From a virus: a stretch of 64,000 nucleotides of DNA. Position numbers and translations under genes: made by a program. Below, in pieces: positions 2,687 to 58,201 of this stretch. Numbering within the stretch: position 1 is the first letter of the stretch; every line of letters begins with the position of its first letter. The stretch lies in the IMG/VR virus record IMGVR_UViG_3300046694_000296, positions 62,001-126,000 of that record; one strand, written 5' to 3'. The notes below the pieces were generated by a model, which was given only the letters and a program-made list of their open reading frames with translations, had not been told where the DNA came from and did not search any database.

Positions 2687-2715
2687 GTCACGTATAAGTG
2701 ACGCGTTACTATACT
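2687..2715 (+). promoter_or_regulatory. Operator dyad abutting TATACT promoter box
   Basis: AGTGACGCGTTACT (2697-2710) is one copy of the dispersed dyad and shares its last T with a TATACT -10 box (2710-2715). A second dyad, CGTCAC-GTATAA-GTGACG (2687-2704), overlaps it. No good -35 box is seen. It would control the lipoprotein gene at 2761. Confidence 0.6.
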
Positions 2716-2760
2716 TCTCATTAACCGCCCGGTCGCACGGGCGTTCACTGAAGGAAGAGC

Positions 2761-3171
2761 ATGAGAAAGAAACTGTTGAGCATCCTGGGCCTAGCTGCGC
2801 TGTTCATCCTCACCGCGGCGGTGCTCACAAGCTGCGGGCACCGCGACGACTACGCCTATCAGCAGCCCGTGGTGCAGCAAGCGCCGGTGGTCGCCGCCGC
2901 GCCCATGATGGTCGCGCCCGCTCCGGTAACGGTCGTTGCCGCGACGCCTGCGCATGACGGGTTCCTAACGGGCATGTTGATGGGCCACCTCCTCTCGAAC
3001 GGCGGCCCGAGTTACCACCCGCCGGTCTACCAGCGTGACATTCACCACAACACGACGATCGTCCAGCGCAATACCACGATCGTGCGGCCCGCGATTGCAG
3101 CGCCGCGTGCCAACACCTACGTCTATCGCCCATCCCGCAGCACGACCTTCGGATCGTTCAAACGTCGATAG
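2761..3171 (+). CDS. Predicted lipoprotein (136 aa)
   Basis: The N-terminus has a basic start (MRKK), a hydrophobic stretch and a lipobox (LTSC) that makes C25 the lipidated residue, so the product should be a lipoprotein of the host envelope. The mature part is rich in Val, Ala, Pro and Gln up to about residue 65, then His- and Thr-rich with a near repeat (HNTTIVQRNTTIVRP), and ends basic. It has its own promoter-operator and a GAAGGAAGAG ribosome site. The role is unknown; exclusion of other phages or envelope alteration are guesses from location in the cell only. Confidence 0.8.
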   Translation: MRKKLLSILGLAALFILTAAVLTSCGHRDDYAYQQPVVQQAPVVAAAPMMVAPAPVTVVAATPAHDGFLTGMLMGHLLSNGGPSYHPPVYQRDIHHNTTIVQRNTTIVRPAIAAPRANTYVYRPSRSTTFGSFKRR

Positions 3172-3200
3172 TCGCGCCAGCAGTCTGATTTGAGAATGTA

Positions 3201-3221
3201 GGTCGGGCGCAATGCCCGACC
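3201..3221 (+). terminator. GC hairpin upstream of thyX
   Basis: GGTCGGGC-GCAAT-GCCCGACC forms an 8-bp stem with no U run. An alternative upstream thyX start (3212) would lie inside this hairpin, which argues for the downstream start at 3296. Confidence 0.4.
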
Positions 3222-3295
3222 CAATCGAGAGGTTCCATCGACGTCGCGCACCGGAAGGTGGCGAGCTCAATGCAGTCTTTCAACCAGGAGCACAC

Positions 3296-3982
3296 ATGCA
3301 AGACAACGCCATCAAACTGTTGGACCACGGCCACATTCGCCTCGTCGAGTCGATGGGCTCGGACCTGTCGATCGTCCGCAACGCCCGCGTGAGCTACGAC
3401 GCCGAATGGCGCACGGGCGAGGACGCCGGCAAAGATGCCAAGCTGATCGACTACCTCGTCAAGAACCGCCACACCAGCCCTTTCGAGGCCGTGACCTTCA
3501 CCTTCGACGTGAAGGCGCCTATTTTTGTGTTCCGCCAGTGGCACCGGCATCGCACGGCGGCCTACAACGAAATCTCTGGGCGATACGCCGAGCTGCCGGA
3601 GGAGTTCTACGTCCCGATCCTCGCTGACATTACGGAGCAGTCGTCGTCCAACAAGCAGATGCGCACGGACACGCAGCACCCGATGGCGCAAGAGTTCGCC
3701 GACATTATTCGCTCAACCTGCGAGCAAGCCTTCAGGCAATACCACTACCTGATCGAGAACGGCTGTCCGCGCGAACTCGCGCGCTCGGTGCTCCCGCTCG
3801 GCACCTACAGCCATATGTTCTGCACCGTCTCGCTGCACAACCTTATGCACTTCCTGGGCTTGCGTCTGCACTCGCACGCGCAGAAGGAGATCCGCGTCTA
3901 CGCCGAAGCGATGCTGGAGCTGATCGAGCCGGTCGTGCCGGTGGCGGTCGCCGCATACCGTAAGCATCGCATCGCCCATTAA
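3296..3982 (+). CDS. thyX: FAD-dependent thymidylate synthase ThyX
   Basis: ThyX makes dTMP from dUMP using methylene-tetrahydrofolate, FAD and NADPH. The signature RHRTAAYNEIS (RHR-x7-S) is present after a WHRHR segment, and the later ELARSVLPLG segment with its following Tyr is also typical. The product is 228 aa, the usual ThyX length. The ATG at 3296 is chosen because CAGGAG lies 6 nt upstream; the in-frame ATG at 3212 adds 28 unrelated residues and lies in a hairpin. With ribonucleotide reductase it forms a nucleotide supply block that makes the phage independent of host ThyA. Confidence 0.95.
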   Translation: MQDNAIKLLDHGHIRLVESMGSDLSIVRNARVSYDAEWRTGEDAGKDAKLIDYLVKNRHTSPFEAVTFTFDVKAPIFVFRQWHRHRTAAYNEISGRYAELPEEFYVPILADITEQSSSNKQMRTDTQHPMAQEFADIIRSTCEQAFRQYHYLIENGCPRELARSVLPLGTYSHMFCTVSLHNLMHFLGLRLHSHAQKEIRVYAEAMLELIEPVVPVAVAAYRKHRIAH

Positions 3983-4002
3983 ACGCATCGGTATTGCCTC
4001 AC

Positions 4003-4027
4003 TATACTGATAAGTAACCCGTTACAC
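4003..4027 (+). promoter_or_regulatory. TATACT promoter with operator dyad
   Basis: A TATACT -10 box (4003-4008) is followed by AAGTAACCCGTTACAC (4012-4027), where a transcription start would fall. This is a classic repressor position. It drives the gene at 4063. Confidence 0.65.
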
Positions 4028-4062
4028 ACGGTGCAAACCAAACAACCACAGGAGTAAAACAC

Positions 4063-4734
4063 ATGACGCAAGCCGCAAACACGCTGGACAACGCCACCTA
4101 CCGCACCGAAGTCCTCTCGACCGAATCGAAGCCCGAGTCGATCAACTTCGGCCCGGCCACGCTGCTGATGGCGCTGAGCCTCGCGGTGCAAGCCGGCAAC
4201 CTGCTCGATCAGGTGAAGCGCGCGGTGTTCTACGGCAAGCAGCTGGACCCGAAGGTGACGGGCGAGGCGCTGCAGGCGATCCCGGCGATGGTCAAGGACA
4301 TCAGCTTCCCGCTCGCCACCGGCCGCTACCTCGATCCGCGCGACGTTGACTTTTTCCCGGGCATTGAAGGCGAAGCCCGCAAGGCACTGTCGCTGCAAGG
4401 CGTGGACGTGCGCCTGCTGCACGCAGCGGTCGGCCAGTTCACCGAGTCGTCCGAGTTCATCGAGGCGCTGATCCCGACGTTCTTCGGCACGCCGGTCGAC
4501 AAGGTGAACCTGCTGGAAGAGCAGGGCGATAGTTCATGGTATGGCGAGATCGCGCTCGACGCGCTCGGCTACAGCCGCGAGCAGTGCAATTTCACCAACA
4601 TCAAGAAGCTGAAGGACAAGAAGGCGGGCCGCTACCAGAAGGGCGCATTCGATCCGAACGCTGCGATCAACCGTGACACGACCGCCGAGCGTGCGCTGCT
4701 CGAAGCAGGCGCTGATGCACCGGCGGCCGCCTGA
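4063..4734 (+). CDS. MazG-like nucleoside triphosphate pyrophosphohydrolase
   Basis: The C-terminal half matches the all-alpha NTP pyrophosphohydrolase (MazG-like) pattern: LLEEQGDSSWY corresponds to the EExGDxxWY metal-binding helix, followed by NFTNIKKLKDKKAGRYQKGAF, the usual N-xxKL-x-RY ending. Such enzymes hydrolyse (d)NTPs to monophosphates and pyrophosphate. In phages they may clean the pool or lower alarmone signals, or supply monophosphates for modified nucleotides. The product is 223 aa with an alanine-rich tail. AGGAG lies 8 nt before the ATG. It is coupled by a 1-nt overlap to the nucleotide kinase gene downstream. Confidence 0.75.
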   Translation: MTQAANTLDNATYRTEVLSTESKPESINFGPATLLMALSLAVQAGNLLDQVKRAVFYGKQLDPKVTGEALQAIPAMVKDISFPLATGRYLDPRDVDFFPGIEGEARKALSLQGVDVRLLHAAVGQFTESSEFIEALIPTFFGTPVDKVNLLEEQGDSSWYGEIALDALGYSREQCNFTNIKKLKDKKAGRYQKGAFDPNAAINRDTTAERALLEAGADAPAAA

Positions 4735-5360: not shown

Positions 5361-5364
5361 CCGA

Positions 5365-5403
5365 GAAAGGGAACCGACAATATCAATCAGTCGGTTCCCT
5401 TTC
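5365..5403 (+). terminator. Long perfect hairpin (14-bp stem)
   Basis: GAAAGGGAACCGAC (5365-5378) pairs without mismatch with GTCGGTTCCCTTTC (5390-5403). The 3' arm ends in TTTC, so it can act as a factor-independent terminator. It closes the nucleotide-metabolism operon. Confidence 0.7.
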
Positions 5404-5429
5404 AAATCAACCAATTACACGAGGACAAC

Positions 5430-6508: not shown

Positions 6509-6510
6509 AC

Positions 6511-6849
6511 GTGACGAAAGACGAGAAGTTTGCGATGGCTGGGTTGGCAGCAGCCGAGTGGCAACAGGTTCTCAGTGAGACGGTGCGCAACGACACGCCG
6601 GGCGCCGGGCTGTTCACCGGCAAGCTGGTCATCGACCCGGCCGTGTTGCAGCCTTCGGTCACGTTCCGCGCGCAGGGAATGCAGACGATTCTGCATGTGA
6701 CTCACGACGGCGCATTCAGCTGGCACCCGGACGCGGACGCTCTGATCGAGGCGATGGTGAAGGACGAGTGGAACAAGGCGACCATGCACCTCCTCAAGCG
6801 CCTGCGCCGCTTCGAACAGATCGCGAAGTCCGTCGAAGCGCATTTCTGA
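6511..6849 (+). CDS. Hypothetical protein (112 aa)
   Basis: Starts at GTG 6511, two bases after the upstream TGA, with CAGGAG upstream; the longer frame to 6343 runs through the previous gene and is ignored. The product is mixed alpha/beta with an amphipathic C-terminal helix (HLLKRLRRFEQIAKSVEAHF). No family recognised. It ends just before a promoter-operator. Confidence 0.7.
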   Translation: MTKDEKFAMAGLAAAEWQQVLSETVRNDTPGAGLFTGKLVIDPAVLQPSVTFRAQGMQTILHVTHDGAFSWHPDADALIEAMVKDEWNKATMHLLKRLRRFEQIAKSVEAHF

Positions 6850-6868
6850 TTCCAATCGCTCACGCTAC

Positions 6869-6893
6869 TATACTGGTAAGTAACACATTACCA
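6869..6893 (+). promoter_or_regulatory. TATACT promoter with operator dyad
   Basis: A TATACT -10 box (6869-6874) is followed 3 nt later by AAGTAACACATTACCA (6878-6893), a slightly imperfect copy of the dyad. It precedes the gene at 6915. Confidence 0.6.
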
Positions 6894-6914
6894 ACCACTT
6901 ATTACAGAGGGAAC

Positions 6915-8022: not shown

Positions 8023-8049
8023 TATACTAAGTAACAAGTAAGTTACTAA
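8023..8049 (+). promoter_or_regulatory. TATACT promoter with 20-bp operator variant
   Basis: TATACT (8023-8028) is followed directly by AAGTAAC-AAGTAA-GTTACTA, the wider-spaced form of the dyad, ending 13 nt before the exonuclease start. Confidence 0.65.
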
Positions 8050-9873: not shown

Positions 9874-9896
9874 AAGTAATAGCTTACTCATACACT
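9874..9896 (+). promoter_or_regulatory. Operator dyad beside a TACACT box
   Basis: AAGTAATAGCTTACTC (9874-9889) is a diverged copy of the dyad, followed by TACACT (9891-9896), a plausible -10 box for the gene at 9914. Confidence 0.5.
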
Positions 9897-16182: not shown

Positions 16183-16209
16183 TATACTGGACAGTAACCA
16201 GTAACTTAC
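16183..16209 (+). promoter_or_regulatory. TATACT promoter with operator dyad
   Basis: TATACT (16183-16188), with a possible TTGAAA -35 at 16158-16163 (19-bp spacer). AGTAACCAGTAACTTAC (16193-16209) covers the expected start. It drives the small-gene operon beginning at 16265; the rest of the 15983-16264 gap is GC-rich and holds no gene. Confidence 0.65.
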
Positions 16210-19801: not shown

Positions 19802-19817
19802 AAGTCACGCGTAACTT
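19802..19817. promoter_or_regulatory. Operator dyad
   Basis: AAGTCACGCGTAACTT, a good copy of the 16-bp dyad, lies alone in the short gap before the gene at 19831, with no obvious -10 box. Confidence 0.65.
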
Positions 19818-28336: not shown

Positions 28337-28365
28337 TTGCAGCAAGTAACCCGTTACTTTAAGAT
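28337..28365 (+). promoter_or_regulatory. Promoter with operator filling the spacer
   Basis: TTGCAG (28337-28342) and TAAGAT (28360-28365) are 17 bp apart. The spacer contains the full dyad AAGTAACCCGTTACTT (28344-28359), whose 7-bp arms match perfectly. Binding there would exclude RNA polymerase. It drives the gene at 28425. Confidence 0.75.
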
Positions 28366-28424: not shown

Positions 28425-29099
28425 ATGACGAATGCAGCTAAAGAACAAGTTATCACCCTCGAAAACGTGTTTATCGCTATCAACCGCGCGAATGACCGTT
28501 ACAACGCAAAGACGGGCAGCGCTCACATGCAAGACGACCTGAAGAAAGCGCGCGGTTACTGGGACGAAGCGCTGTGCACGTTCGTTGCGGGCATGCTGAA
28601 CCGGGCGCGTATCGATCAAGTCGAATTTCTCGCGACCATCGCAGATAACATGCCCGTCAAAGCGGTAATGCGCGCTAGTGAGTTTTTCGCATGCTTGCAT
28701 GCAAAGAACTATCGTCAACTCGACGGTGTTACTGCGCTGTCGATTCTTAGCGCAGTGCATGCGGGCGCAGTGTCGCGTAGTGCGGTTTTCTTTGCTGCAA
28801 CCGGTCGCGGGAATGAATCGACGTCAGATGTGGTTAGCGATATTTCGCTGGTTCGCAAGCTTCAACGTGCGCTGGGTAAGACTGTGGGCGCAACGACCGA
28901 AAGCACGCAGAATTCCCGCTCTTTCGGGACTAACGGGTTTTGCAAGTATCTGCGCATGGGTGAAATGGTCAAAGCAAAGGGCGCAGAAGCACAGTTGACC
29001 GTCAACGCTAAATCCCCCTTTGTCGCTGCAATTGCAAAGATGGTAGAGCAAGCAAGCGAAGACACCCTCTCGTTGGTTAAGGGCGCGAAGAAAGAGTAA
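28425..29099 (+). CDS. Hypothetical protein (224 aa)
   Basis: Helical soluble protein (NVFIAINRANDRYNAKTGSA, KKARGYWDEALCTFVAGML) with a middle Ser/Ala-rich part and basic C-terminus. Codon use is less GC-biased than neighbouring genes. No Shine-Dalgarno is evident (AATAGGTAAATCAAA precedes the ATG). It is bracketed by two operators, one in its promoter and one starting at its stop codon. The tight control suggests an early or lysogeny-linked role. No family recognised. Confidence 0.75.
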   Translation: MTNAAKEQVITLENVFIAINRANDRYNAKTGSAHMQDDLKKARGYWDEALCTFVAGMLNRARIDQVEFLATIADNMPVKAVMRASEFFACLHAKNYRQLDGVTALSILSAVHAGAVSRSAVFFAATGRGNESTSDVVSDISLVRKLQRALGKTVGATTESTQNSRSFGTNGFCKYLRMGEMVKAKGAEAQLTVNAKSPFVAAIAKMVEQASEDTLSLVKGAKKE

Positions 29100-29111
29100 G
29101 TAACGCGTTAC
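29098..29111. promoter_or_regulatory. Operator dyad at the stop codon
   Basis: AAGTAACGCGTTAC (29098-29111) overlaps the TAA of the upstream gene. No -10 box is nearby, so it may act on elongation. Confidence 0.6.
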
Positions 29112-29114
29112 GCT

Positions 29115-33450: not shown

Positions 33451-33474
33451 AAGTAAGTTATGAGTTACTTTATA
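33451..33474. promoter_or_regulatory. Shared operator between divergent genes (copy A)
   Basis: AAGTAA-GTTATGAG-TTACTT (33451-33470), the 20-bp variant; on the minus strand it directly follows a TATA box (33474-33471). It can control both 33435 (minus) and 33544 (plus). Confidence 0.65.
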
Positions 33475-35028: not shown

Positions 35029-35048
35029 AAGTAATATGTAGCTTACTT
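35029..35048. promoter_or_regulatory. Shared operator between divergent genes (copy B)
   Basis: AAGTAA-TATGTAGC-TTACTT, the 20-bp variant, in the same place relative to its two genes as the operator at 33451. Confidence 0.6.
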
Positions 35049-37276: not shown

Positions 37277-37300
37277 AGTATAGTAACGAATGACTTACTC
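37277..37300 (-). promoter_or_regulatory. TATACT promoter with 20-bp operator variant for the helicase
   Basis: On the minus strand GAGTAAGTCATTCGTTACTA runs straight into TATACT (37282-37277), the same GTTACTATACT junction as at 2706-2715. GGAGG follows before ATG 37252. The plus-strand gene at 37314 may share the site. Confidence 0.7.
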
Positions 37301-38463: not shown

Positions 38464-39101
38464 GCGTCACCCGCACCAACGAGATTCGCGCCGTTGCCGA
38501 TCTCGTGCCCTACGCGAAGAACGTCAAGAAGCACGACGACGCGCAGGTCGCCAAGATCATCGAGTCGATCCAGCAGTTCGGCTGGACCCAGCCCATCGTC
38601 ATCGACGAGGCGAACGTCATCATCGCCGGCCACGGCCGGCGCCTGGCGGCGACCAAGCTCTCCATGACGCAGGTGCCGGTGCTCGTGCTGCGCGGCCTGA
38701 CGGACGGGCAGAAGCGGGCGCTGCGCCTGGCCGACAACCGCACGAACGAGGGCGGCATCGACACGCTGATGTTCCGCGAAGAGATTCTCGGCATCGAGGA
38801 GCTGCTCACCGGCATCTACGACGTGAAGGAGCTCGAGTTCTCCACCGCGGACCTGGGCGAGCTGAACGACGCGGCCTTCGTGCCGGACGTCGCTGAAGCC
38901 GTCGAAATGCAGGAGCAGGCGGCCCACGCGAAGGCAGACGAGGTGACCGCGCGCCGCGTGCCGCTCTCGAAGGCGTTCGGCTTCAAGGACGTCGCCGGCA
39001 GCCACGAGATCCACATCTCGCGCTTCATGGCGCGCGCGGCCGCTGAAACCGGGTTGACGGGCGCCGACGCGCTCGCGGCTTTTCTCGAAACGCTGGCATA
39101 A
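38460..39101 (+). CDS. ParB/Srx-domain protein, copy 2
   Basis: ParB-type N-terminal domain: LVPYAKNVKKHDDAQVAKII, QQFGWTQPIVIDEANVIIAG and GHGRRLAATKL (the G-x-GR-xx-A box). This version resembles the ParB domains encoded beside phage DNA methyltransferases and modification enzymes more than copy 1 does. C-terminal 90 residues are of unknown fold. It is 213 aa from ATG 38460 and ATGA-coupled to the zinc gene upstream. Confidence 0.82.
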   Translation: MSVTRTNEIRAVADLVPYAKNVKKHDDAQVAKIIESIQQFGWTQPIVIDEANVIIAGHGRRLAATKLSMTQVPVLVLRGLTDGQKRALRLADNRTNEGGIDTLMFREEILGIEELLTGIYDVKELEFSTADLGELNDAAFVPDVAEAVEMQEQAAHAKADEVTARRVPLSKAFGFKDVAGSHEIHISRFMARAAAETGLTGADALAAFLETLA

Positions 39102-39115
39102 GTCACCCATTACTC
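39100..39115. promoter_or_regulatory. Operator dyad in place of the ribosome site
   Basis: AAGTCACCCATTACTC fills the 17-nt gap between the ParB copy 2 stop and the ATPase ATG 39119, leaving no Shine-Dalgarno sequence. Confidence 0.6.
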
Positions 39116-39118
39116 ACC

Positions 39119-39835
39119 ATGACAACCTACACCATCGACAAGCGCTTCCACACCCGTGTCGCGCGCAGCCAGCGCGTCGTGGAAGTCGCTGAAGCGTTCG
39201 GGCTCGGCCTGGACGACAAGGAATTCGTGATCTTCGACCAGCTCAAGCTGGACGTGGCGCAGGGCGACGTGCTCTACATCACGGGCCAGTCGGGCTCCGG
39301 CAAGTCGCTGCTGCTGCGCGAGCTCTCGGCGCAGATGGCTGCCGAAGGGCAGAAGGTCGCCAACCTCGACGAGGTGGCGATCAACGCGGAGCTGCCGCTC
39401 ATCGACCAGATCGGCACCAGCACGAACGACGCGATCCGGCTGCTCTCGATTGCCGGCCTGAACGACGCGTATCTGTTCATCCGCAAGCCCGGCGAGCTCT
39501 CTGACGGCCAGCGCTACCGCTTCAAGCTCGCGAAAGCCATCGAGAGCCAGGCCGACGTCTGGGTCGCCGACGAGTTCATGGCGGTGCTCGACCGGACCGC
39601 GGCCAAGGTGATCGCGTATGCCGTGCAGAAGACCGCGCGCAAGGTCAACGCGACCGTGATCGTCGCAACCACCCACCTCGATCTCGTGGAAGACCTGCAG
39701 CCGTCGCTCTACATCGAAAAGCGCTACCGCGAAAAGCTGCGCATCGAAGCATTCACCGACCTCAACGCGGCGGCCGAGGGCTCGAAGACCCTCACACGCG
39801 ACGAGGCTTTCGATCTCATGAAAAGGATGGCCTGA
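39119..39835 (+). CDS. Soluble ABC-class ATPase (COG2401-type)
   Basis: Walker A GQSGSGKS (56-63), ABC signature LSDGQRYR (127-134) and Walker B VWVADEF (147-153) with the catalytic Glu after the Asp; a later TTHLDL supplies the H-loop. No membrane segments are present here or in neighbours, so it is not a transporter. In bacteria and archaea, COG2401 proteins fuse this kind of ATPase to a GNAT acetyltransferase domain; here the two parts are separate genes flanking a thioredoxin. It is 238 aa and overlaps the thioredoxin start (TGATG). Confidence 0.8.
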   Translation: MTTYTIDKRFHTRVARSQRVVEVAEAFGLGLDDKEFVIFDQLKLDVAQGDVLYITGQSGSGKSLLLRELSAQMAAEGQKVANLDEVAINAELPLIDQIGTSTNDAIRLLSIAGLNDAYLFIRKPGELSDGQRYRFKLAKAIESQADVWVADEFMAVLDRTAAKVIAYAVQKTARKVNATVIVATTHLDLVEDLQPSLYIEKRYREKLRIEAFTDLNAAAEGSKTLTRDEAFDLMKRMA

Positions 39836-40164
39836 TGAACCCGAAGTATGAAGCGGCGCTCGAAGCGTCGAAAGAGCGCCCGCAAGTCGTGATCTTCACG
39901 GCGGCCTGGTGCGGCCCGTGCAAACTCCTGAAACCGGCGCTGCAGTCGCTCAAGGGCGACTACGGCTTCGACTATCACGAGTTCGACGTGGCCGAGTTCG
40001 AGCCCGCGGACCTCCAGACGCTCGGCGTGCGCAACGTGCCGAACGTGCGCGTGCTCGTGAACACCGTCGTGAAGGCACAGTTCGTCGGCGCGCGCACGAA
40101 GGCGTCGGTCGAGGAGTGGCTCACGGCGCTCGGCGTGATCTCTCGCGGGCTGAGCTTCGAATGA
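39835..40164 (+). CDS. Thioredoxin-like protein
   Basis: AAWCGPCK gives the classical WCGPC redox site (W25, C26, C29), with the cis-proline loop at RNVPNVRV. It is 109 aa, the normal single-domain length, cytosolic. It may reduce ribonucleotide reductase, or serve the modification cassette in which it lies between ATPase and GNAT genes with overlaps on both sides. The genomic placement favours the second, which is inference. Confidence 0.9.
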   Translation: MNPKYEAALEASKERPQVVIFTAAWCGPCKLLKPALQSLKGDYGFDYHEFDVAEFEPADLQTLGVRNVPNVRVLVNTVVKAQFVGARTKASVEEWLTALGVISRGLSFE

Positions 40165-41144
40165 TCGCGCCGGCCACCGCCCTGAACCTTGCCGGGCCGA
40201 TCACGGCCTCGGACGACCGGGATAGCCCGATCTTCGCCTGGCGTGACCCGGCGGCCGGCACGCGCCCGCTCTCGCTCATGAAGCACATGTATGTCGAGCG
40301 CGGCACGCTGGAGGACTGGCAGCTCCTGCACGAGCTCCACTACAAGGCGAGCAACAACGGCATCGGCCCGCGCTACGTGCGTCTCGTGATCGATGACGGC
40401 GTGGAGCCCGCGCAGACGATCGGCGTGATGGTGTTTACGGTCCCCAAGCCGCTCGACTCCGGTCGCAATCAGGTGTTTCCGCACCTGCGGCCCAACCAGA
40501 ACGGGCGCGACAACCGGCTCATCAACGTGCAGCGCATGGCGTGGATCAACAAGAACCTGATTCTCTCCAGCCGCACGGTGCTCGACACGATGTATCGGGG
40601 CGGCGGCATCGCCTACCGCTTCAAGAACATCGGCTACCGGCTGATGGGCTTCCGGTATGTGGAGAGCCGCAGCTCGATGAGCCGCTACAACCCGTTCAGC
40701 ATCCGCGCCGGCATGCGCTTCGTGAAGCCGAAGTCGGCGCCGGCCTTCGAGACGGGCTTGGCCTTCTTCGCGCGGCACTTCAAGAGCCCGGCCTACGACT
40801 ACGTGGCGATCAAGGCCGAGATCGAGGCGATGCCCGATTACCTGCGCGAGCACACGCTGAAGGAGCTGCGCACCTTCTACTACCGCAACAGCTCGATGGA
40901 GAAGTCGGGCGACAACCGGCTGAACGGCACCTCCCGCGTCGAACAGATGGAGCTCGGGTATCTCCTCAAGCAGACCCAGCAGCTCGTGTTCGGCGCGACC
41001 GTCTACGCCGCGTGGACGAACCCCGACTGGGATCCAAACACGCAGGCGATGCGCACGCTCCCCGCGCGTATCCCGCTTTCCGCTTTTGACAACCAAGGGG
41101 TCGACGAACCCCTGCGACTGGACCTTCTGGAGGCACCAGCATGA
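40161..41144 (+). CDS. GNAT-fold acyltransferase of the COG2401/Mom-like type
   Basis: Residues about 100-215 look like the acetyltransferase part of COG2401: INVQRMAWINKNLILSSRTV, then YRGGGIAYRFKNIGYRLMGF in the place of the acyl-CoA loop, and SSMSRYNPFSIRAGMRFV, the family's M-x-RYNPF-xx-AGM block. The protein has 327 aa with an extra C-terminal helical region. GNAT-fold Mom of phage Mu modifies adenine in DNA; this protein may transfer an acyl-type group to DNA bases with help of the ATPase. Substrate and reaction are not known. ATG 40161 overlaps the thioredoxin stop. Confidence 0.65.
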   Translation: MIAPATALNLAGPITASDDRDSPIFAWRDPAAGTRPLSLMKHMYVERGTLEDWQLLHELHYKASNNGIGPRYVRLVIDDGVEPAQTIGVMVFTVPKPLDSGRNQVFPHLRPNQNGRDNRLINVQRMAWINKNLILSSRTVLDTMYRGGGIAYRFKNIGYRLMGFRYVESRSSMSRYNPFSIRAGMRFVKPKSAPAFETGLAFFARHFKSPAYDYVAIKAEIEAMPDYLREHTLKELRTFYYRNSSMEKSGDNRLNGTSRVEQMELGYLLKQTQQLVFGATVYAAWTNPDWDPNTQAMRTLPARIPLSAFDNQGVDEPLRLDLLEAPA

Positions 41145-41368
41145 CGCTCAAAACGACTGCCAAGACCCTCTGTGTCGTTGGGACCAAGGGCACGCTCTCT
41201 CCCTGGACGATGGAAGCTGTCGACGATGCCGCGGCCGTGAAGGGCATGGCATTCGACTTCGTGATCTGGGCGCGCACCCCCTCGAAAGAGGAATACGAGG
41301 TCGTCAACGCGACGTTGAAGGGCTCGGAGTGGGGTGATCACTTCTGGACCTGCCGGCGGCCGCGATGA
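41141..41368 (+). CDS. Hypothetical protein (75 aa)
   Basis: MTLKTTAKTLCVVGTKGTLS, then AAVKGMAFDFVIWARTPSKE: small alpha/beta protein. ATGA overlap with the GNAT gene and with the next gene suggests it belongs to the same cassette. No family recognised. Confidence 0.66.
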   Translation: MTLKTTAKTLCVVGTKGTLSPWTMEAVDDAAAVKGMAFDFVIWARTPSKEEYEVVNATLKGSEWGDHFWTCRRPR

Positions 41369-41796
41369 ACCTCACGACCAAGCAGATCGAGATCATGAAG
41401 GTGGTGGCCGCGGCCGCCGCCAGTGAGCCGGTCGATCTGGACCAGCTGCTCGAGCGCCTGACCTACGCGACCACCAAGGAGAGCCTGCAGTTCTCCCTGC
41501 GCGCGATCGAGCGGCACGGCCTCATCGACCGCTCGATGGCCGAGCACCGCCGCGGGCGGCTGCGACGCCTGGTGGCCGCAACGGACCTCGGCCGGGCCGT
41601 AGTGGGCGGCACAGGGCGGCCCGCTCCGGGGCCTGGCTCGACGATCGGCATGCGATCGGAAGAAGTTCTCCCGGTGCCAGCCTCAAAGGAGGTGGCTTTG
41701 ATAAGCGAAAACTTACCCGAGCCGGAGCTTCTTTCTCTCCCGGAGGTTTCTCTTCCCGAGCCGGAGATACTGCTTGAAGAAGTGTTTATTGATTAA
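41365..41796 (+). CDS. Winged-helix-like protein (143 aa)
   Basis: N-terminal 75 residues fit a winged helix (LTTKQIEIMKVVAAAAASEP, then KESLQFSLRAIERHGLIDRS and RLRRLVAATDLGRAV), likely DNA-binding. The C-terminus is an acidic Leu/Glu/Pro repeat (PEPELLSLPEVSLPEPEILL) that could be a protein-interaction tail. It is the last gene before the terminase region and is a candidate regulator of late genes or of the operator regulon. Confidence 0.6.
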   Translation: MNLTTKQIEIMKVVAAAAASEPVDLDQLLERLTYATTKESLQFSLRAIERHGLIDRSMAEHRRGRLRRLVAATDLGRAVVGGTGRPAPGPGSTIGMRSEEVLPVPASKEVALISENLPEPELLSLPEVSLPEPEILLEEVFID

Positions 41797-41824
41797 AAAG
41801 TAAGCATTTTTTGTAAGTTTTACC

Positions 41825-41928
41825 ACTTGTCACTTTTTGCGTTTCCCCCTTATATATAAACCTTCTTTTTAATACATAGTAAAAAGCTACATTTTAAAAA
41901 CTAAGGGAAACGCGAAAAAGTGACAAGT
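41825..41928. repeat. 27-bp inverted repeat around an AT-rich centre
   Basis: Left arm 41825-41852 (ACTTGTCACTTTTT then GCGTTTCCCCCTTA) and right arm 41902-41928 are inverted copies with only small indels. The 49-nt centre is almost pure A/T with TATATATAA. AAGTAAG words flank both arms. It lies in the 41797-42117 gap, the most AT-rich spot of the window, just before terminase. Confidence 0.85.
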
Positions 41929-42036
41929 AAGTAAGGATAGTGAAAGGATAAAGAGCACGATGAGATCAGGACCGCGGGTGGGAAAGTCTGCGCATGAAAG
42001 TAAGGCACGGGTTATTTACATTCTTCCCGCGGCCCG

Positions 42037-42102
42037 GTATAGTCTGCCCTTAGTGAATCACCTCCAAGGGGCAGACCGAGCGACGGCTGCCCCATTTTTT
42101 TT
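42037..42102 (+). promoter_or_regulatory. Overlapping hairpins (attenuator-like) before the terminase gene
   Basis: A TATAGT box (42037-42042) is followed by two competing stems. GTCTGCCCTT (42042-42051) pairs with AAGGGGCAGAC (42066-42076), and GGGGCAG (42068-42074) pairs instead with CTGCCCC (42087-42093), which is followed by A and eight T. The second is a good terminator. Confidence 0.6.
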
Positions 42103-42117
42103 GCCTGAGAGCCAGTG

Positions 42118-42795
42118 ATGACGGATACGACGACCGAGCCGAAAAAGACCGGCGGCCGCAAGCCCGGTAGCCGCTCGCTTTCGGAGAAGCAAAAAGCCGA
42201 AGCCTGCGCGCTCTACGCTGCGGGCGAACTCACGATCGAGCAGCTTGCCGAGCGCTACAAGCGCACCCCGCGCGCGATGAGCGCGATGTTCGCGAAGGCG
42301 GGCGTAAAGAAGGGCGACAAGCGCGCCGAAGTGCAAGCTGCGGTCACACAGCAGGTCAACCAGCAGATCGCGGGTGACGCGGGCGTGATCGCGGGCAAGA
42401 TCAAAGAGACGAAGGACTCGCACTACGCGGCGGCGAAGGTCATCGCGGGCCTGATCCAGAAGCAGCTCGTCACGGCGCAGCAAAACGGCAAGGGGTTCGC
42501 GATCGTCCAGAACGAGATCAAGACGCTCAAGCTCGCGGCCGAGGCATTGGCGACCCTGCGCGCCGAGCGCTTCGTGATTCTCGGCATCGCCGACGGCGAG
42601 AAGGACGACAACGACGAGCTGCCGGATCTGGGCGTGCACGAGATGACCGCCGAGCAGATCGCCGAGATGCAAGCGCGCCAGGACGACGGCGGCCTCGACA
42701 TGAGCGCCGACGAAGAGGCGATGGCAATGGCGATCGCGCCGCCGGGCAACGACGACAACGTGATCGACATCGAGGACGGCGATGCAGCTGCGTGA
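42118..42795 (+). CDS. Terminase small subunit
   Basis: Recognises phage DNA for packaging. The N-terminal domain holds a helix-turn-helix (SEKQKAEACALYAAGELTIE, QLAERYKRTPRAMSAMFAKA), followed by helical oligomerisation segments and a very acidic C-terminal tail. The product is 225 aa. ATG 42118 is preferred over GTG 42115. It sits directly before and overlaps the large subunit gene, the normal order. The inverted repeat at 41825 could be its target. Confidence 0.8.
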   Translation: MTDTTTEPKKTGGRKPGSRSLSEKQKAEACALYAAGELTIEQLAERYKRTPRAMSAMFAKAGVKKGDKRAEVQAAVTQQVNQQIAGDAGVIAGKIKETKDSHYAAAKVIAGLIQKQLVTAQQNGKGFAIVQNEIKTLKLAAEALATLRAERFVILGIADGEKDDNDELPDLGVHEMTAEQIAEMQARQDDGGLDMSADEEAMAMAIAPPGNDDNVIDIEDGDAAA

Positions 42796-44068
42796 GCCGG
42801 GGCTGCCCGGCATTACGCCGATCGCAGCCGAGATGCAGACGCTTTTCCTCCATCCGAAGCAGATGGAGGTGTTTCGCTCGCCGCATCGCTTTCGCGTGGT
42901 CACGGCGGGCCGACGCTGGGGCAAAACTCAGCTCGCCAAGGTGGCGCTCATCAAATACGCGAAGGTGAAGAACCGGCTCGTGTGGTATGTGGCGCCGTCC
43001 TACCGGATGGCAAAGCAGATCATGTGGCCGGACCTCATCGCCGCGATCCCGCGCAAGTGGGTCAAGAAGATCAACGAGACGACGCTCGCCGTCACGCTCG
43101 TGAACAACACCCGGATTGAGCTGAAGGGCGCCGACAACCCCGACTCGCTGCGTGGCGTGGGTGTGCACTTTCTCGTCATGGACGAGGTGCAGGACATCAA
43201 CCCGGAAGCGTGGACCAAGGTGCTGCGCCCGACCCTCGCATCGACCGGCGGCCACGCGCTCTTTATCGGCACGCCCAAGTCATACAACTTCCTGTATGAC
43301 CTGCACATGCTCGGCCAGGACCCGAAGAACCAGATCCTCGGTCGCTGGAAGAGCTGGCAGTTCCCGACGATCACCTCGCCCTTCATTCCGAAGTCGGAGA
43401 TCGAGGCCGCACGCGCGGACATGGACGAGAAATCGTTCAAGCAAGAATTCGAGGCATCGTTCGAGACGATGAGCGGGCGCGTGTATCACGCCTTCGATCG
43501 CAAGGTGCACACGGGCGACTATCCGTTCAACCCGAGCCTGCCGATCTGGGTGGGGCAGGACTTTAACATCGACCCGATGAGCTCCTGCATCTTGCAGCCG
43601 CAGGAGAACGGCGAGGTGTGGGCGATCCACGAGCTGAGCCTGAAGAGCTCCAACACCGAGGAGGTGTGCGACGAGCTCGAGCGCCTCTACTGGAAGCTCA
43701 TCAAGCGCGTGACGATCTTCCCCGACCCAGCCGGCGGCTACCGCCAGCACGCGCGCGGCGAGTCGGACGTGGACATCTTCAAGCAGAAGGGGTTCGAGAA
43801 CGTCGTCTACCGGAAGAAACACCCGCCTGTGGCCGACCGGATCAACGCGGTGAACCGCATGCTGCGCTCAGCCGACGGGCGCGTGCGCCTGAAGGTCGAC
43901 AAGCGCTGCAAGGAAGTCATCAAGGCGCTGGAGCAGACGATCTACAAGGAAGGCGGGCGCGAGGTCGACAAGGACATGGGCGTCGAGCACATGGGCGACG
44001 CACTCGGCTACCCGGTCGAGTATATGTTCCCGGTGCGCGAAATCAGCATTGCAGGCGTGTCCATTTGA
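42782..44068 (+). CDS. terL: Terminase large subunit
   Basis: The motor ATPase and nuclease of DNA packaging. Walker A is AGRRWGKT (42-49), Walker B LVMDE (131-135), coupling region LFIGTPKS; the nuclease half has WVGQDFNID, IFPDPAG and the final GDALGYPVEY acidic residues. At 428 aa it is a full-length, single-chain terminase. It overlaps the small subunit gene by 14 nt. Confidence 0.95.
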   Translation: MQLREPGLPGITPIAAEMQTLFLHPKQMEVFRSPHRFRVVTAGRRWGKTQLAKVALIKYAKVKNRLVWYVAPSYRMAKQIMWPDLIAAIPRKWVKKINETTLAVTLVNNTRIELKGADNPDSLRGVGVHFLVMDEVQDINPEAWTKVLRPTLASTGGHALFIGTPKSYNFLYDLHMLGQDPKNQILGRWKSWQFPTITSPFIPKSEIEAARADMDEKSFKQEFEASFETMSGRVYHAFDRKVHTGDYPFNPSLPIWVGQDFNIDPMSSCILQPQENGEVWAIHELSLKSSNTEEVCDELERLYWKLIKRVTIFPDPAGGYRQHARGESDVDIFKQKGFENVVYRKKHPPVADRINAVNRMLRSADGRVRLKVDKRCKEVIKALEQTIYKEGGREVDKDMGVEHMGDALGYPVEYMFPVREISIAGVSI

Positions 44069-44077: not shown

Positions 44078-44093
44078 AAGTGACCCGTTACTC
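44078..44093. promoter_or_regulatory. Operator dyad
   Basis: AAGTGACCCGTTACTC lies between terminase and portal; a possible GTG portal start (44080) falls inside it. Confidence 0.65.
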
Positions 44094-46674: not shown

Positions 46675-46722
46675 TTGTAAACCCGTGGCATTCCTGTTAA
46701 AGTAAGTCGCGGGTTACTTACT
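46675..46722 (+). promoter_or_regulatory. Promoter with operator before the major capsid gene
   Basis: TTGTAA (46675-46680) and TTAAAG (46697-46702) are 16 bp apart. The dyad AGTAAGT...ACTTACT (46701-46722), containing the core AAGTCGCGGGTTACTT, covers the -10 edge and start site. Confidence 0.6.
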
Positions 46723-46753: not shown

Positions 46754-47662
46754 ATGCCATTGCTGCGAGAAGAAGCCGACAAGCTGAGTAACAATCAGCT
46801 GGTCGCAGGCGTGATCGAGGAAATCATCGACAAGGATGAGCTCTTCGCGCTCCTGCCGTTCGTCGGCATCAACGGAAAGGCTTACGTCTACGATCGCGAG
46901 AACACCCTGCCGGACGCAGAGTTCTACGACGTGAACGACGAGCTGGATGAATCGGCTGGCACGTTCACCGAGGTCGTGGCGAAGCTGCGCATCCTCGCTG
47001 GTGACGTGGACGTCGACAAGTTCCTGCAGGAAACCGAGTCCGACACGAACGATCAGCGTGCTACGCAGATCGGTCTGAAGGCCAAGGCGGTTGCCCGCAA
47101 GTTCAAGCGCACGATCGCTCAAGGCGATTCGACGGCCAACGCGAAGGAATTCGACGGCCTGCCGAAGATGGTGTCGGCTGCCCAGACGCTCGACGCAGGC
47201 GGTGCGGCCAACGGCGCGGCGCTCACGCTGTCGATGCTCGACGAGCTCGGCGATGCGGTCATCAACGGCGCGGACGCATACGTGATGCGCCCGGGCACGA
47301 TCCGCGCATACCGCGCGCTGCTGTATGCAACCGGCGGCATCCAGCCGGCGATGGTCGAAGTGCCGAACTTCGGTCAGGCGATCCTCGGCCACAACGGCAT
47401 CCCCATCCTCCGTAACGACTTCCTGTCGAACACGGAGACGAAGGGCACCAACACGAACACGTGTTCGGTGTATGCGGTTCGCCTGAACGAACTGGACGGC
47501 TTCCACGGCCTCTGGGGCGGCAAGCAAGCCGGCATTCGCGTCGAGGACATCGGCACGGTGCAGAACAAGGATGCAGACCGCATCCGCGTGAAGTGGTATT
47601 GCGGCTCGGCGCTGAAGTCCACGCGCTCGCTGGCACGTCTGCGCGGCGTGACGAACGTCTAA
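46754..47662 (+). CDS. Major capsid protein
   Basis: 302 aa with the features of an HK97-fold structural protein that needs a separate scaffold: NNQLVAGVIEEIIDKDELFA near the start, the FYDVNDELDESAGTFTEVVA loop, a central ADAYVMRPGTIRAYRALLYA helix and a C-terminal GLWGGKQAGIRVEDIG strand set typical of DUF2184-like capsid proteins. Own promoter-operator, GGAAG ribosome site and strong terminator mark it as the most expressed late gene. Confidence 0.85.
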   Translation: MPLLREEADKLSNNQLVAGVIEEIIDKDELFALLPFVGINGKAYVYDRENTLPDAEFYDVNDELDESAGTFTEVVAKLRILAGDVDVDKFLQETESDTNDQRATQIGLKAKAVARKFKRTIAQGDSTANAKEFDGLPKMVSAAQTLDAGGAANGAALTLSMLDELGDAVINGADAYVMRPGTIRAYRALLYATGGIQPAMVEVPNFGQAILGHNGIPILRNDFLSNTETKGTNTNTCSVYAVRLNELDGFHGLWGGKQAGIRVEDIGTVQNKDADRIRVKWYCGSALKSTRSLARLRGVTNV

Positions 47663-47677: not shown

Positions 47678-47699
47678 AGTAAGTCACCCGTGACTTACT
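47678..47699. promoter_or_regulatory. Operator dyad, best 22-bp copy
   Basis: Core AAGTCACCCGTGACTT (47681-47696), extended on both sides by AGT and ACT to a 22-bp dyad without mismatch except the CC centre. It lies right after the capsid gene and before its terminator. Confidence 0.75.
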
Positions 47700-50969: not shown

Positions 50970-50987
50970 TCTAGTAACGAGTTACTT
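50965..50987 (+). promoter_or_regulatory. TATAGT box with operator dyad
   Basis: TATAGT (50965-50970) overlaps the end of the upstream gene; TAGTAACGAGTTACTT (50972-50987) follows directly, before the tail tube gene. Confidence 0.65.
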
Positions 50988-51553: not shown

Positions 51554-51569
51554 AAGTCACCCGTAACTT
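51554..51569. promoter_or_regulatory. Operator dyad
   Basis: AAGTCACCCGTAACTT, preceded by AGT, lies right after the tail tube gene, followed by a GGCCGGC-TCAC-GCCGGCC hairpin (51577-51594). Confidence 0.7.
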
Positions 51570-55300: not shown

Positions 55301-56803
55301 GACGTCTCCACACCTGACTCCGACGAGAGCAACGGGCGCGGCGCGATCAAGTTCCTCGAGAAGCTCGGCACTAAGTCGACCGAGGCGGCCAAGAAGATTG
55401 CGCCGGTTGTCGAATACATGAAGTCGGTCCAACTCCAGGCCGATCAAGTCGACATGGTGAAGTTCACGCGCGAGATCGTGAAGACCGATCAGGACACGCA
55501 AGCGCAATTGATCGAGAACACGCGCGACCGCATCACCGCGCAGATCGCGCTGGATAACGATCGGTGGGAGAAGGCAGCCAAGGCGCGGCTTGAGAGGGCG
55601 AAGGCTGACGGCGGCGACATTTCGAACGAAGAGGCCATGATTGACGCGGCGCGCGTCACCCGCGCGGCCGAGCAGGCGAAGCGCCTTCGCACGCCGATGG
55701 AGCAGCTGGCGATCGACTGGCAGGACACGACCGACCAGATGGCGAAGAAGTCGACGGAGTGGTCCAACTCGACCATCGACGCCTTCGTGAACGTCGCCAA
55801 GACCGGCAAGCTCAACTTCGGCAGTCTGTTCGAGTCGATCGCCACGGACATGCTCAAGATCAGCCTCCAGAAGTCGATGGGCGGCGGCCTGCAGCAGCTC
55901 TACGACGGCATCGGCCAGAAGTTCACGAACATCATCGGCAGCAACAGCAAGGCGTCGGGTGGCGAAGCGGCCACTGGCGCCGCTACGGGCTCGATGGGCA
56001 GCGGGATCATGAGCTTCCTGCAGCACCCGATTGATGGCGTCACCTCGCTCTTCAACAAGCTCACGGGTTCGGGCGACACGCTCAACTCGAAGATGGTCGA
56101 GCAGGCGCGTCAGGCCGTCATCGGCGTGAGCGCCGACACGACCACCGCGAACAGCGTCATCACGCTCGGCAACGCTGCGCTCTACGCCGCGCAAGCGCTC
56201 GCGTCGATGGGTGGCGGCGGTGGCGGCGGCATTGGCGGCGCGCTTGCAAGCATCGCGGGGGCTGCTGCATCGGCTTACTTTGGCGGGGCCGGGGCGACGG
56301 CCACGAGCACGGCGCTCGCGGGCACCCAGTCTTTCGGCAGCGGGCTGTCCGGCGAGACGAACATGAGCACGCTGATGGGCGTGCAGGGCGGCACCAACAC
56401 GCTCGGCAACTACACGTATCAGGGCGGCGCGATGTCGAACCAATACAAGTTCGCCGACGGCGGGATCATGACCGAGATGGGACCGCTCGCGCTGCGCAAA
56501 TATGCCAACGGCGGCATCGCCAACTCCCCGCAGGTTGCGGTCTACGGCGAAGGCAGCATGAACGAGGCGTTCGTGCCGCTGCCCGATGGCCGCAGCATCC
56601 CCGTGACGATCACCGGCGGTCAACAGGGCGGCGGCACGGCCCCGGCGGTGACCGTGAACGTTATCAACCAGACCAGCCAGCCGGTCACCGCTCAGCAAGG
56701 GTCGCCCCGTTTCGATGGGCGCCAGATGGTTCTCGACATCGTGCTGACGGCCGCGACCACGCCTGGCTCCTTCCGTGACGGAATGAAAGGCGCACTGAAA
56801 TGA
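52313..56803 (+). CDS. Tape measure protein
   Basis: 1496 aa, the longest tail gene but one, setting tail length. The N-terminal 250 residues match tape-measure domains (SIMETAGELEKLTTVLKGLS, SLAIQQMAGKGVVSLQELRL). Helical coiled segments with regular Ala/Gln/Lys spacing fill residues 380-1000; a hydrophobic part (GGWIGLVSIAVVAGIGFW) may insert in the membrane. The C-terminus has Gly-rich stretches and FADGGIMTEMGPLALRKYAN with NEAFVPLPDGR, typical of Gram-negative siphophage tape measures. Predicted tail length about 220 nm. Confidence 0.95.
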   Translation: MASNLENVGYNLILDDSGFRVTAQSTAAQLKALEAQFASTGQGVKAIEQKINSAGVAFHQWVTTIGAVKFALMDIDSVFLTLPRSIMETAGELEKLTTVLKGLSTAADEAGRNADAALGKKFILNLEQNAPFKLAALTDTFVKFKTVGIDPTKGAMEALINQVAKYGGGSEQLKSASLAIQQMAGKGVVSLQELRLQLSQAIPNAAQAMADGMGMSMGELTKKISTGTVSSEMAIRKMLAVFTLDSLGSAAEQMKTWQGEIEKLNVRWELFKNDVAEAGMFDAAKKELEDIMGLFGTETAKNWSKDLSNSFVSMIGLFHDGREVLQEYIPQLLTISKLVLAAFATNMLSNFLTGMRNAVVGMNASWREYAANAITAQGAVAAKQLSVTEQILAADAKRMASIAQESELRQEALAREIANNQKLMLIYDAADARRDAARQAEYAKEIANNEKRLAANMAFLAQLKAEHAAYEAALVPLQFNSMKLGQANSPATAAEYVAAQKQTDAMQRNVQLTAAQIDVVTRDTAALMEKTAALKGVAAAELANAEATGRNSAMLVAHNAELATGIRAEREMVNNMTAMTRGAAMMESGLLKLKFVFNALGGWIGLVSIAVVAGIGFWQKYRQAAKDAAQAALDAANVKNIIAKGEADKDAVARQNTALTNNQAELGLVETQIQNRKNGIGDDGTTMIPRAGENDPEVKALRAKAAALRSAGEDIKRVRDQLQAQVDDKSAELASHSYANQYETETNKQLSGLTAAKSREIATLQTNFAKTTATMDKQSKEYTALANQLATDKNKVEQKISTDYIAALNKRQAELADAIVNNKFTGKGKELEAQKLAAAREQERIAQQLSNAQSGLQALAAPNEYVAGKDKKTAAAKPPTDLFAKKNADIKSQLAQATNELKMIVSGASEYDQIRVGAEAKIRAIWENGELDTKGHGKGAKNSRPAWDSAEVRGLIDDETMLKITENAKSQMESLKGKLAPLAAEYQESIKKLMAGDVSTPDSDESNGRGAIKFLEKLGTKSTEAAKKIAPVVEYMKSVQLQADQVDMVKFTREIVKTDQDTQAQLIENTRDRITAQIALDNDRWEKAAKARLERAKADGGDISNEEAMIDAARVTRAAEQAKRLRTPMEQLAIDWQDTTDQMAKKSTEWSNSTIDAFVNVAKTGKLNFGSLFESIATDMLKISLQKSMGGGLQQLYDGIGQKFTNIIGSNSKASGGEAATGAATGSMGSGIMSFLQHPIDGVTSLFNKLTGSGDTLNSKMVEQARQAVIGVSADTTTANSVITLGNAALYAAQALASMGGGGGGGIGGALASIAGAAASAYFGGAGATATSTALAGTQSFGSGLSGETNMSTLMGVQGGTNTLGNYTYQGGAMSNQYKFADGGIMTEMGPLALRKYANGGIANSPQVAVYGEGSMNEAFVPLPDGRSIPVTITGGQQGGGTAPAVTVNVINQTSQPVTAQQGSPRFDGRQMVLDIVLTAATTPGSFRDGMKGALK

Positions 56804-57171
56804 GCACGACCTACACGACCTTGCCGCACAACGACTTGCTCGATTCGAGCAAGTTCCAGCCGGAGAAAGAGAACCCGGCGATGGCCTCCAAGATGGACGG
56901 AGGCTATGTCGTCACCCGGCCGAAGCACACGCGAAAGCCCCGGCGCACGTTCGCCTGCGGCTTCACTGATTTCACCGACGCACAACGCGCGGACATCGAC
57001 GCGCATTTCGACGCGATGCACGGCGGCAGCGCGATTTTCTACTTCGTGCACCCGCTGTCGAAGGAGACGATCTACGTGCGTTACACGACCGATACCACGA
57101 TGCAGTGGAGCAACGCCGGCAAGGGCATGAACCCGCTGTGGTCCGTCACTTTCAAGTTGCAGGAGGTCTAA
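56800..57171 (+). CDS. Minor tail protein M-like (123 aa)
   Basis: Lambda gpM-type protein joining tape measure and tail tip. YVVTRPKHTRKPRRTFACGF and TDAQRADIDAHFDAMHGGSA with IFYFVHP fit the family. ATGA overlap with the tape measure gene and the following L-like gene starts immediately, as in lambda. Confidence 0.78.
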   Translation: MSTTYTTLPHNDLLDSSKFQPEKENPAMASKMDGGYVVTRPKHTRKPRRTFACGFTDFTDAQRADIDAHFDAMHGGSAIFYFVHPLSKETIYVRYTTDTTMQWSNAGKGMNPLWSVTFKLQEV

Positions 57172-57807
57172 GTGCCAAATCCCGTATCCGTTGCAAGCAT
57201 CATCGAGAAGAACAAGGTCGGCAGCGCCGTCCCTTATCTGGCCTTCCTCGACGTGGGCGTGATCGACCCGACCACGGGCGTTGTGGCCCAGACGTTCCAC
57301 TACGTGAACAACACCGAGGAGGTGGTGCGCCAGGGCATCACCTACCTGCCGATGCAGTTCTCGCTGGAGCTGAAGACCCAGGCGGGCAGCCAGCCGCAGA
57401 TCACCGTCTCGATCTTCGACTACACGCGCGCCGTCATCCAGACGATGAACGACTACGGCGGGGGCACCGACTTCCCGGTGACGATCCGCGTGTGTCAGAC
57501 CGGCGGCCTTGACGAAGCTCCCGATGTCGAGGAGCACTTCACGATCATCCAGGCGAGCGCTGATAACTACGTCGCGAACTGGACGCTGGGCGCCGAGAAC
57601 GCGCTCACCAAGCAGTTCCCGCGCCGCCAGCAGCGCCGCGACTTTTGCCAGTGGGTCTACCGCGACGGCCGCACCTGCCGCTACAACGGCGCGATGCCCG
57701 CGTGCGACCGCACGCTCGCGGGTCCGATGGGCTGCAAGGCTCACAATAACGTCATCAACTTCGGCGGGATGCCGAACTTGGTATCCAGCAACCTCTACGT
57801 CGCGTAA
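57172..57807 (+). CDS. Minor tail protein L-like with iron-sulphur cysteines
   Basis: Lambda gpL-type tail tip protein. The N-terminal domain is beta-rich (DUF1833-like: GITYLPMQFSLELKTQAGSQ). The C-terminal part has four cysteines in the gpL arrangement: C159, C169, C178 and C188 (FCQW, TCRY, ACDR, GCKA), which in lambda ligate a 4Fe-4S cluster. GTG start directly after the M-like stop. 211 aa. Confidence 0.85.
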   Translation: MPNPVSVASIIEKNKVGSAVPYLAFLDVGVIDPTTGVVAQTFHYVNNTEEVVRQGITYLPMQFSLELKTQAGSQPQITVSIFDYTRAVIQTMNDYGGGTDFPVTIRVCQTGGLDEAPDVEEHFTIIQASADNYVANWTLGAENALTKQFPRRQQRRDFCQWVYRDGRTCRYNGAMPACDRTLAGPMGCKAHNNVINFGGMPNLVSSNLYVA

Positions 57808-57808
57808 A

Positions 57809-58201
57809 ATGAATGAGTCACCCGTTACTTATGTGGACCTGCTTGGCGCGCCGTTCCGAAAGGGCGGCCGCGGCCCTGACGAGTTCGACTGCTACGGCCT
57901 CGTCAAGTATCTGATCCATCGCGCCACCGGCCAGGTGGTGCCGGACTATGTGACGCCCGACGACACGGGCGCCACGCACGCGCTGATGATTACCTCGCGC
58001 GAGTTCTGGCGGCGGCTGCCCGGGCCGAAGGTCGGCTCAATGATCTTCTTCAAGATCGGCCGGGAGGTCTGCCATGTGGGCTACATGATAAGTAACGGGT
58101 TATTCATTCATGCGTGGGAGCCGTCCGGCGGCGTGACGGTGGAGCGGCTCTCGCAGTGGGAAAAACGGATCGACGGGTTCTATGAATACATCGAAGGCTA
58201 A
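57809..58201 (+). CDS. NlpC/P60-family tail protein (K-like peptidase)
   Basis: Small peptidase domain: FDCYGLVKYLIHRATG with catalytic C28 and EVCHVGYMI with H89, followed by LFIHAWE. Lambda gpK-type proteins combine such a domain with tail tip assembly and may open cell-wall peptides on DNA entry. It is 130 aa, with only the NlpC domain. Two operator dyads lie inside the coding sequence, at codons 3-8 and about 95-99, the only gene with such sites. It overlaps the J gene by 20 nt. Confidence 0.88.
   Translation: MNESPVTYVDLLGAPFRKGGRGPDEFDCYGLVKYLIHRATGQVVPDYVTPDDTGATHALMITSREFWRRLPGPKVGSMIFFKIGREVCHVGYMISNGLFIHAWEPSGGVTVERLSQWEKRIDGFYEYIEG
57815..57830. promoter_or_regulatory. Operator dyad inside the NlpC/P60 coding sequence (1)
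   Basis: GAGTCACCCGTTACTT, read as part of codons 3-8 (E-S-P-V-T-Y). Confidence 0.65.
58090..58105. promoter_or_regulatory. Operator dyad inside the NlpC/P60 coding sequence (2)
   Basis: AAGTAACGGGTTATTC, read as I-S-N-G-L-F codons; 260 bp downstream of the first copy. Confidence 0.6.

Follow-up and report, generated by a model that had tools for sequence, protein, structure and literature searches.

Dispersed 18-bp dyads as predicted operators of a single immunity repressor in SSU5-supergroup phage-plasmids

Introduction

In the phage-plasmid P1, the C1 repressor has 22 operators scattered over the genome, all asymmetric 17-mers (ATTGCTCTAATAAATTT), through which lytic units are silenced and its own gene is regulated (PMC8546580). 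The L5-like (Cluster A) mycobacteriophages have 20 to 30 dispersed stoperators, one helix-turn-helix (HTH) repressor, an autoregulatory site, and a motif that diverges with the repressor (PMC6550527). The L5 sites are asymmetric 13-mers that are oriented with transcription and lie mostly off promoters.

A preliminary description of the window analyzed here, a 64,000-nucleotide stretch of viral DNA, reported about 20 copies of a 16-bp dyad and likened them to L5 stoperators. As a functional comparison this is fair: like the L5-like phages, the genomes in question appear to combine dispersed sites with one HTH repressor, codivergence of motif and repressor, and an autoregulatory site. P1 C1 is the closer parallel because these genomes belong to predicted phage-plasmids; here too, one repressor would serve at least about 20 dispersed operators at lytic promoters, with 38 promoter-linked sites per genome. 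In contrast to the P1 operators and L5 stoperators, the dyads are symmetric 18-bp sequences, and they lie largely on −10 boxes. Furthermore, tblastn searches of a phage collection recovered no P1 record with two repressor homologs as queries and no mycobacteriophage among the repressor relatives. Since the sites are symmetric and neither known repressor is among the detectable relatives, the system appears to work like those of P1 and L5, nearest P1 in lifestyle, but to be a member of neither. We found no description of the operator set of SSU5-like elements in open-access text, and there CYRAN_45 carried just the label “putative repressor.”

Results

The window covers positions 62001 to 126000 of a 215,656-bp virus record. 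Self-comparison revealed that the record consists of two head-to-tail genomes, A (108,902 bp) and B (106,627 bp), with identity of approximately 70 to 90%, depending on the stretch, and with an exact 127- to 156-bp stretch common to both at the joins. An independent 105-kb contig, G001, matches genome B alone at 97 to 99% identity. We infer that the record is an assembly chimera of two relatives of about 107 kb, the shared stretch resembling an assembly-graph crossing. A single 215-kb jumbo phage was ruled out, given two genomes of about 107 kb joined at the shared stretch and the occurrence of B alone as G001. Genome A extends from window position 1 to approximately 46.9 kb and genome B occupies the remainder, so that window sites up to 46704 belong to A and those from 47681 to B. 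The chimera thereby supplies an internal comparison of A with B.

The large terminase subunit (TerL) shares 69% identity with that of 107-kb Cupriavidus plasmids, 68% with that of 110-kb Acinetobacter baumannii plasmids, and 61% with that of SSU5. Judged by their terminases, A and B fall in the SSU5 supergroup of phage-plasmids, with which they also share modules and a syntenic genome of approximately 105 to 117 kb. The named members (SSU5/pHCM2, pLF82 Cyrano, and the A. baumannii AB-like pABTJ2) resemble A and B in terminase (61 to 69%), gene order, ParA, repressor homolog, and operator class. Unlike them, A and B represent an uncultured lineage nearest a Cupriavidus plasmid, and their operator prefers A at half-site position 6. 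ParA homologs are present in both genomes, and no replication initiator was identified in either. The named hosts of the relatives are Pseudomonadota, bar one metagenome bin labeled Chloroflexi.

The dyads are far more frequent than expected by chance. Allowing up to 2 mismatches, the IUPAC pattern AAGTNACNNGTNACTT matched the window 20 times, compared with 0.63 expected (maximum among 100 shuffles, 5). A weight matrix trained solely on two other phages, G003 and G005, found 21 sites at a threshold of 12, compared with 0.18 per shuffle; these comprise all 20 copies noted earlier and an extra one at 42002 (Table 1). Nearly all of the earlier coordinates held, the exceptions being 16193, where the site starts at 16192, and 33451, where the core is at 33455. 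Across the whole record, 34 sites had at most 1 mismatch and a reversed control pattern had none. Iterated matrices identified 38 dyads in each genome. With genes called by a simple codon-based caller, 37 of 38 sites in one genome and 36 of 38 in the other are noncoding, although noncoding DNA makes up only 15 to 18% of the genome.

Table 1 Predicted operators in the window, the assembly join, and the candidate regulator genes. Positions are those of the window unless marked as record positions.
Feature	Position	Strand	Basis
Operator, genome A; right arm overlaps TATACT −10	2696..2711	+	pattern + matrix
Operator directly 3′ of TATACT, ahead of MazG-like gene	4012..4027	+	pattern + matrix
Operator directly 3′ of TATACT	6878..6893	+	matrix
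Operator ahead of Pol III epsilon-like exonuclease gene; 20-bp dyad reading also possible	8029..8044	+	pattern + matrix
Operator	9874..9889	+	matrix
Operator directly 3′ of TATACT	16192..16207	+	pattern + matrix
Operator	19802..19817	+	pattern + matrix
Operator 73 bp ahead of 225-codon ORF	28344..28359	+	pattern + matrix
Operator at gene end; no start within 300 bp downstream	29098..29113	+	pattern + matrix
Operator; nearest downstream gene on − strand	33455..33470	-	pattern + matrix
Weakest operator of the set; no start within 300 bp downstream	35029..35044	.	pattern + matrix
Operator ahead of UvsW-like helicase gene (− strand); TATACT −10 within arm	37281..37296	-	pattern + matrix
Operator ahead of ABC-ATPase/ParB-cluster gene	39100..39115	+	pattern + matrix
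Operator ahead of terS-terL; absent from earlier list	42002..42017	+	pattern + matrix
Operator ahead of portal gene	44078..44093	+	pattern + matrix
Final operator of genome A part	46704..46719	+	pattern + matrix
Chimeric assembly join, exact A/B shared stretch	46903..47058 = record 108903-109058	.	self-comparison
Operator, genome B; perfect dyad, head/tail module	47681..47696	+	pattern + matrix
Operator ahead of tail-tube-like gene	50972..50987	+	pattern + matrix
Operator two genes 5′ of tape-measure gene	51554..51569	+	pattern + matrix
Operator, tail-tip module	57815..57830	+	pattern + matrix
Operator within short predicted ORF, 105 bp ahead of TailJ-like gene	58090..58105	+	pattern + matrix
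Candidate XRE regulator, genome A	record 40676-41095	-	beside ParA-like gene
Candidate XRE regulator, genome B	record 147848-148303	-	beside ParA-like gene

The consensus in A and B is TAAGTnACnnGTnACTTA; the dyad is real, and at 18 bp it is longer than the 16 bp first proposed. The AGT-N8-ACT spacing is sharp across genomes and is accompanied by minor peaks 4 bp shorter and 4 bp longer. A wider, 20-bp spacing had been assigned to the sites at 8029, 33451, 35029, and 37281. We could not uphold a distinct 20-bp class in the window: these are alternative registers, all four score as ordinary 16-bp sites too, and where genome B has a counterpart (8029 and 37281), it is in the ordinary register. 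Separately, minor dyad classes with arms 4 bp closer or farther than standard, an offset that does not equal a helical turn, occur in A, B, and Cupriavidus, Rhizobium, and SSU5-type genomes.

A palindrome search without a seed in the noncoding DNA of 31 genomes, A and B included, recovered the dyad class in every one, weakly in G026. Variants among the relatives include TAAGTCACnnGTGACTTA, AATAGTnACnnGTnACTATT, and TCAGTCAn4TGACTGA; pABTJ2 has TATTAGTAAGCGCTTACTAATA, and Rhizobium phages have AGTCAATATTGACT-like sites. Three isolated Rhizobium phages (MN988505, MN988547, and MT770738) carry RepC-like genes, a repressor homolog, and 21 to 38 operators in the parts read, and on this gene content they are probably phage-plasmids. 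In G004, noncoding DNA also contains long GCTA tandem arrays, which are unrelated to the operators.

Conservation at the same places in a related phage could be assessed within the record itself. Of the alignable A sites, 33/34 coincide within 3 bp with a B site; the expectation for a random intergenic position is 2.1%. Identity between A and B is 93.6% at key arm positions, compared with 76% at site centers and 82% in other intergenic DNA.

The sites are also closely associated with promoters. We examined −10 hexamers in two zones, from −22 to −9 or from +4 to +9 of the site center, corresponding to positions just 5′ of the site or in its downstream arm. In six close genomes, 66 exact TATACT or TATAAT hexamers lie on the same strand as the gene downstream, versus 2 on the opposite strand. 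Counting every TATAMT-like hexamer as a −10 signal was rejected, because loose matches in one class did not outperform the antisense control; exact hexamers alone discriminate. In the window, the claim that several sites lie directly downstream of TATACT was borne out at 4012, 6878, and 16192. The arrangement fits a repressor that would cover the −10 region.

Alternatively, the dyads might be chiefly L5-type stoperators that halt elongating RNA polymerase, with promoter repression playing a minor part. L5 sites act in this way (PMC6550527), and the genome-wide dispersal of the dyads would suit it. Moreover, some sites do lie at gene ends with no promoter in view, as had been noted for the window, where the site at 29098 lies at a gene end; in eight genomes, no start codon follows within 300 bp for 28/320 sites. 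The sites with no obvious promoter nearby are few, and they are compatible with an elongation block. Such a mode is nonetheless unlikely to be the principal one, since the −10 association is strong and strand specific and the dyads are symmetric, whereas L5 stoperators are asymmetric and biased in orientation. With so many sites on −10 boxes, classical promoter repression is favored.

Gene names in A and B were assigned by similarity to annotated relatives. The sites precede genes for DnaB/primase, CobT/CobS, Pol III, RecA, SbcCD, NrdA, MazG, holin, terminase, portal, tail, and UvsW proteins.

One gene family accompanies the dyads: a small XRE HTH protein gene adjoining a ParA-like gene. The preliminary description saw no repressor in the window, and in both genomes this gene lies elsewhere in the record (Table 1). 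Four sites in A and three in B lie between the regulator gene and the gene divergent from it. Of the 30 genomes that carry the regulator, 25 show one or more sites in the 450 bp preceding it and five show none there. Homologs are encoded in 906 to 932 plasmid records and, by tblastn of the phage collection, in Rhizobium, E. coli, and Klebsiella phages. The regulator matches the phrog_2967 transcription regulators, and its HTH_31, HTH_19, and HTH_3 matches fall just under the curated cutoffs. Its predicted structure (pLDDT, 92) is a five-helix HTH fold, with helices 26 to 33 and 39 to 46 forming the HTH. The nearest solved folds, at weak E values, belong to XRE repressors such as Stl, 434 Cro, and P22 c2, and the sole relative among solved sequences is 8bny, named Immunity repressor protein (E = 2.6e-4). 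The regulator thus has in common with XRE/Cro-CI repressors (434 Cro, P22 c2, ImmR, and Stl) an HTH domain with a recognition helix; it differs from them in that no autocleavage (S24) domain was matched and its C-terminal half matches no family.

The gene divergent from the regulator encodes a conserved protein of 60 to 80 amino acids (LDxGS...HPxxG...), located in genome A at record positions 41338-41577. Operators lie between the two genes, and it occupies the same place in most relatives. Pfam and PHROGs searches gave no convincing match, and the protein is a candidate antirepressor or Cro-like partner. G017 has an additional, divergent member of the repressor family (57402-57815, − strand), which lies by a TrfA-like replication gene and has two sites of its own upstream.

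If the XRE protein binds the dyads, its recognition residues might vary together with operator bases. We compared the two across 23 genomes, a set thinned according to repressor identity; CMS-2020a, for which there was no refit in the standard register, was omitted, and Cyrano took its place. Where residue 37 is K or R, the median frequency of C at half-site position 6 is 0.96, versus 0.48 with other residues (P = 2e-4); where residue 42 is Thr, that of A at half-site position 2 is 0.72, versus 0.29 with S or A (P = 0.005), P values that kinship could inflate, as the regulator tree is nearly unresolved. Both pairs rank near the top of 126 residue-base pairs (permutation P of approximately 0.001 each, uncorrected), and G015 and Cyrano are exceptions to the residue 42 rule. 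In the structural model, residue 37 lies shortly before recognition helix 39 to 46 and residue 42 lies inside it.

Relatives with described lifestyles provided a further comparison. CYRAN_45, annotated as a putative repressor in the Cyrano phage-plasmid of E. coli LF82, is expressed 10-fold above background in lysogens (PMC9928086), and it matches the regulator profile (E = 2e-26). A predicted operator was found in 0/14 upstream gaps of lysogen-expressed Cyrano genes. Among genes that start transcription units, 0/9 expressed versus 23/68 silent ones have an operator, a borderline difference (Fisher P = 0.051). The gap upstream of CYRAN_45 has no site above threshold.

SSU5 is described as virulent (PMC5427195). 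Its genome (NC_018843) retains 25 operators and has no regulator match. The interval from 39096 to 43039 in Cyrano (OV696614), which includes the integrase, CYRAN_45, and CYRAN_46, corresponds to about 60 bp in SSU5 (NC_018843 42600-42663). SSU5 is without the integrase, the repressor, and the divergent small gene, all of which Cyrano has, and has kept the operators; it is likely a natural clear mutant. Pseudomonas phage nickie, a lytic, syntenic relative from wastewater, retains a ParB gene; no regulator and no such sites were found in the 100 kb of its 112 kb that were read.

These observations bear on two further alternatives. The first is that a phage or host activator binds the sites, or a phage sigma factor recognizes them, so that they mark lytic promoters for switching on. 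Nearly all lytic transcription units carry sites, and several relatives have a gene for a sigma-70-like protein close to the regulator gene. However, the sites occur both 5′ and directly 3′ of the −10 box, which suits steric repression, none precedes the lysogen-expressed genes, and virulent SSU5 grows without the regulator. We consider an activating role very improbable. The second is that a ParB-type partition protein binds the dyads as dispersed centromeres, any effect on transcription being secondary. Phage-plasmid N15 has dispersed centromere sites, the elements studied here encode ParA and ParB, and one operator lies ahead of the ABC-ATPase gene in the ParB cluster. This explanation also has very little likelihood: the position of the sites relative to −10 boxes is fixed, their sequence varies together with the XRE recognition helix, and they cluster in the promoter region of the XRE gene; nickie has a ParB homolog yet none of the sites in the 100 kb read.

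Discussion

We propose, with a probability of roughly 0.87, that in SSU5-supergroup phage-plasmids the dyads serve one immunity (lysogeny) repressor, the XRE protein encoded beside parA, as its operators. The preliminary description envisaged one dimeric phage regulator controlling early, accessory, and late genes together, and such a phage-wide regulon is supported by fixed-position conservation, promoter overlap, a covarying regulator, and the published lysogen expression of a relative. We infer physical binding, repression, and maintenance of A and B as plasmids from the sequence evidence.

In the proposed mechanism, a 130- to 180-amino-acid XRE (Cro/CI-type) HTH protein would bind as a dimer to each 18-bp dyad, on or beside a sigma-70 −10 box. 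In the plasmid state, binding would shut off nearly all lytic units, from replication and nucleotide metabolism to packaging, head, tail, and lysis. The repressor may regulate itself through two to four sites in the divergent interval toward the conserved small gene, and its loss would yield a virulent phage. The best reading is a P1- and L5-like dispersed-operator immunity regulon that would use an unrelated repressor and symmetric operators.

We see about an even chance for a broader proposal, in which immunity would follow a single repressor-operator code, its residue-base rule readable, throughout the supergroup, including about 900 Klebsiella, E. coli, Acinetobacter, and other plasmids, several Rhizobium phages, and many uncultured elements. 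SSU5 would then be a natural repressor-deletion mutant and the divergent small gene a new antirepressor or Cro-like partner.

Few phage-plasmids are as common as SSU5-type elements, some of which carry antibiotic resistance genes (PMC9600943). With the repressor and its site known, sequence could be used to predict the lytic units under silencing, the cargo genes exempt from it, the elements that should be immune to one another, and those that are naturally virulent mutants. The covariation, in turn, may provide a setting in which to study how specificity changes jointly in a repressor and approximately 40 operators.
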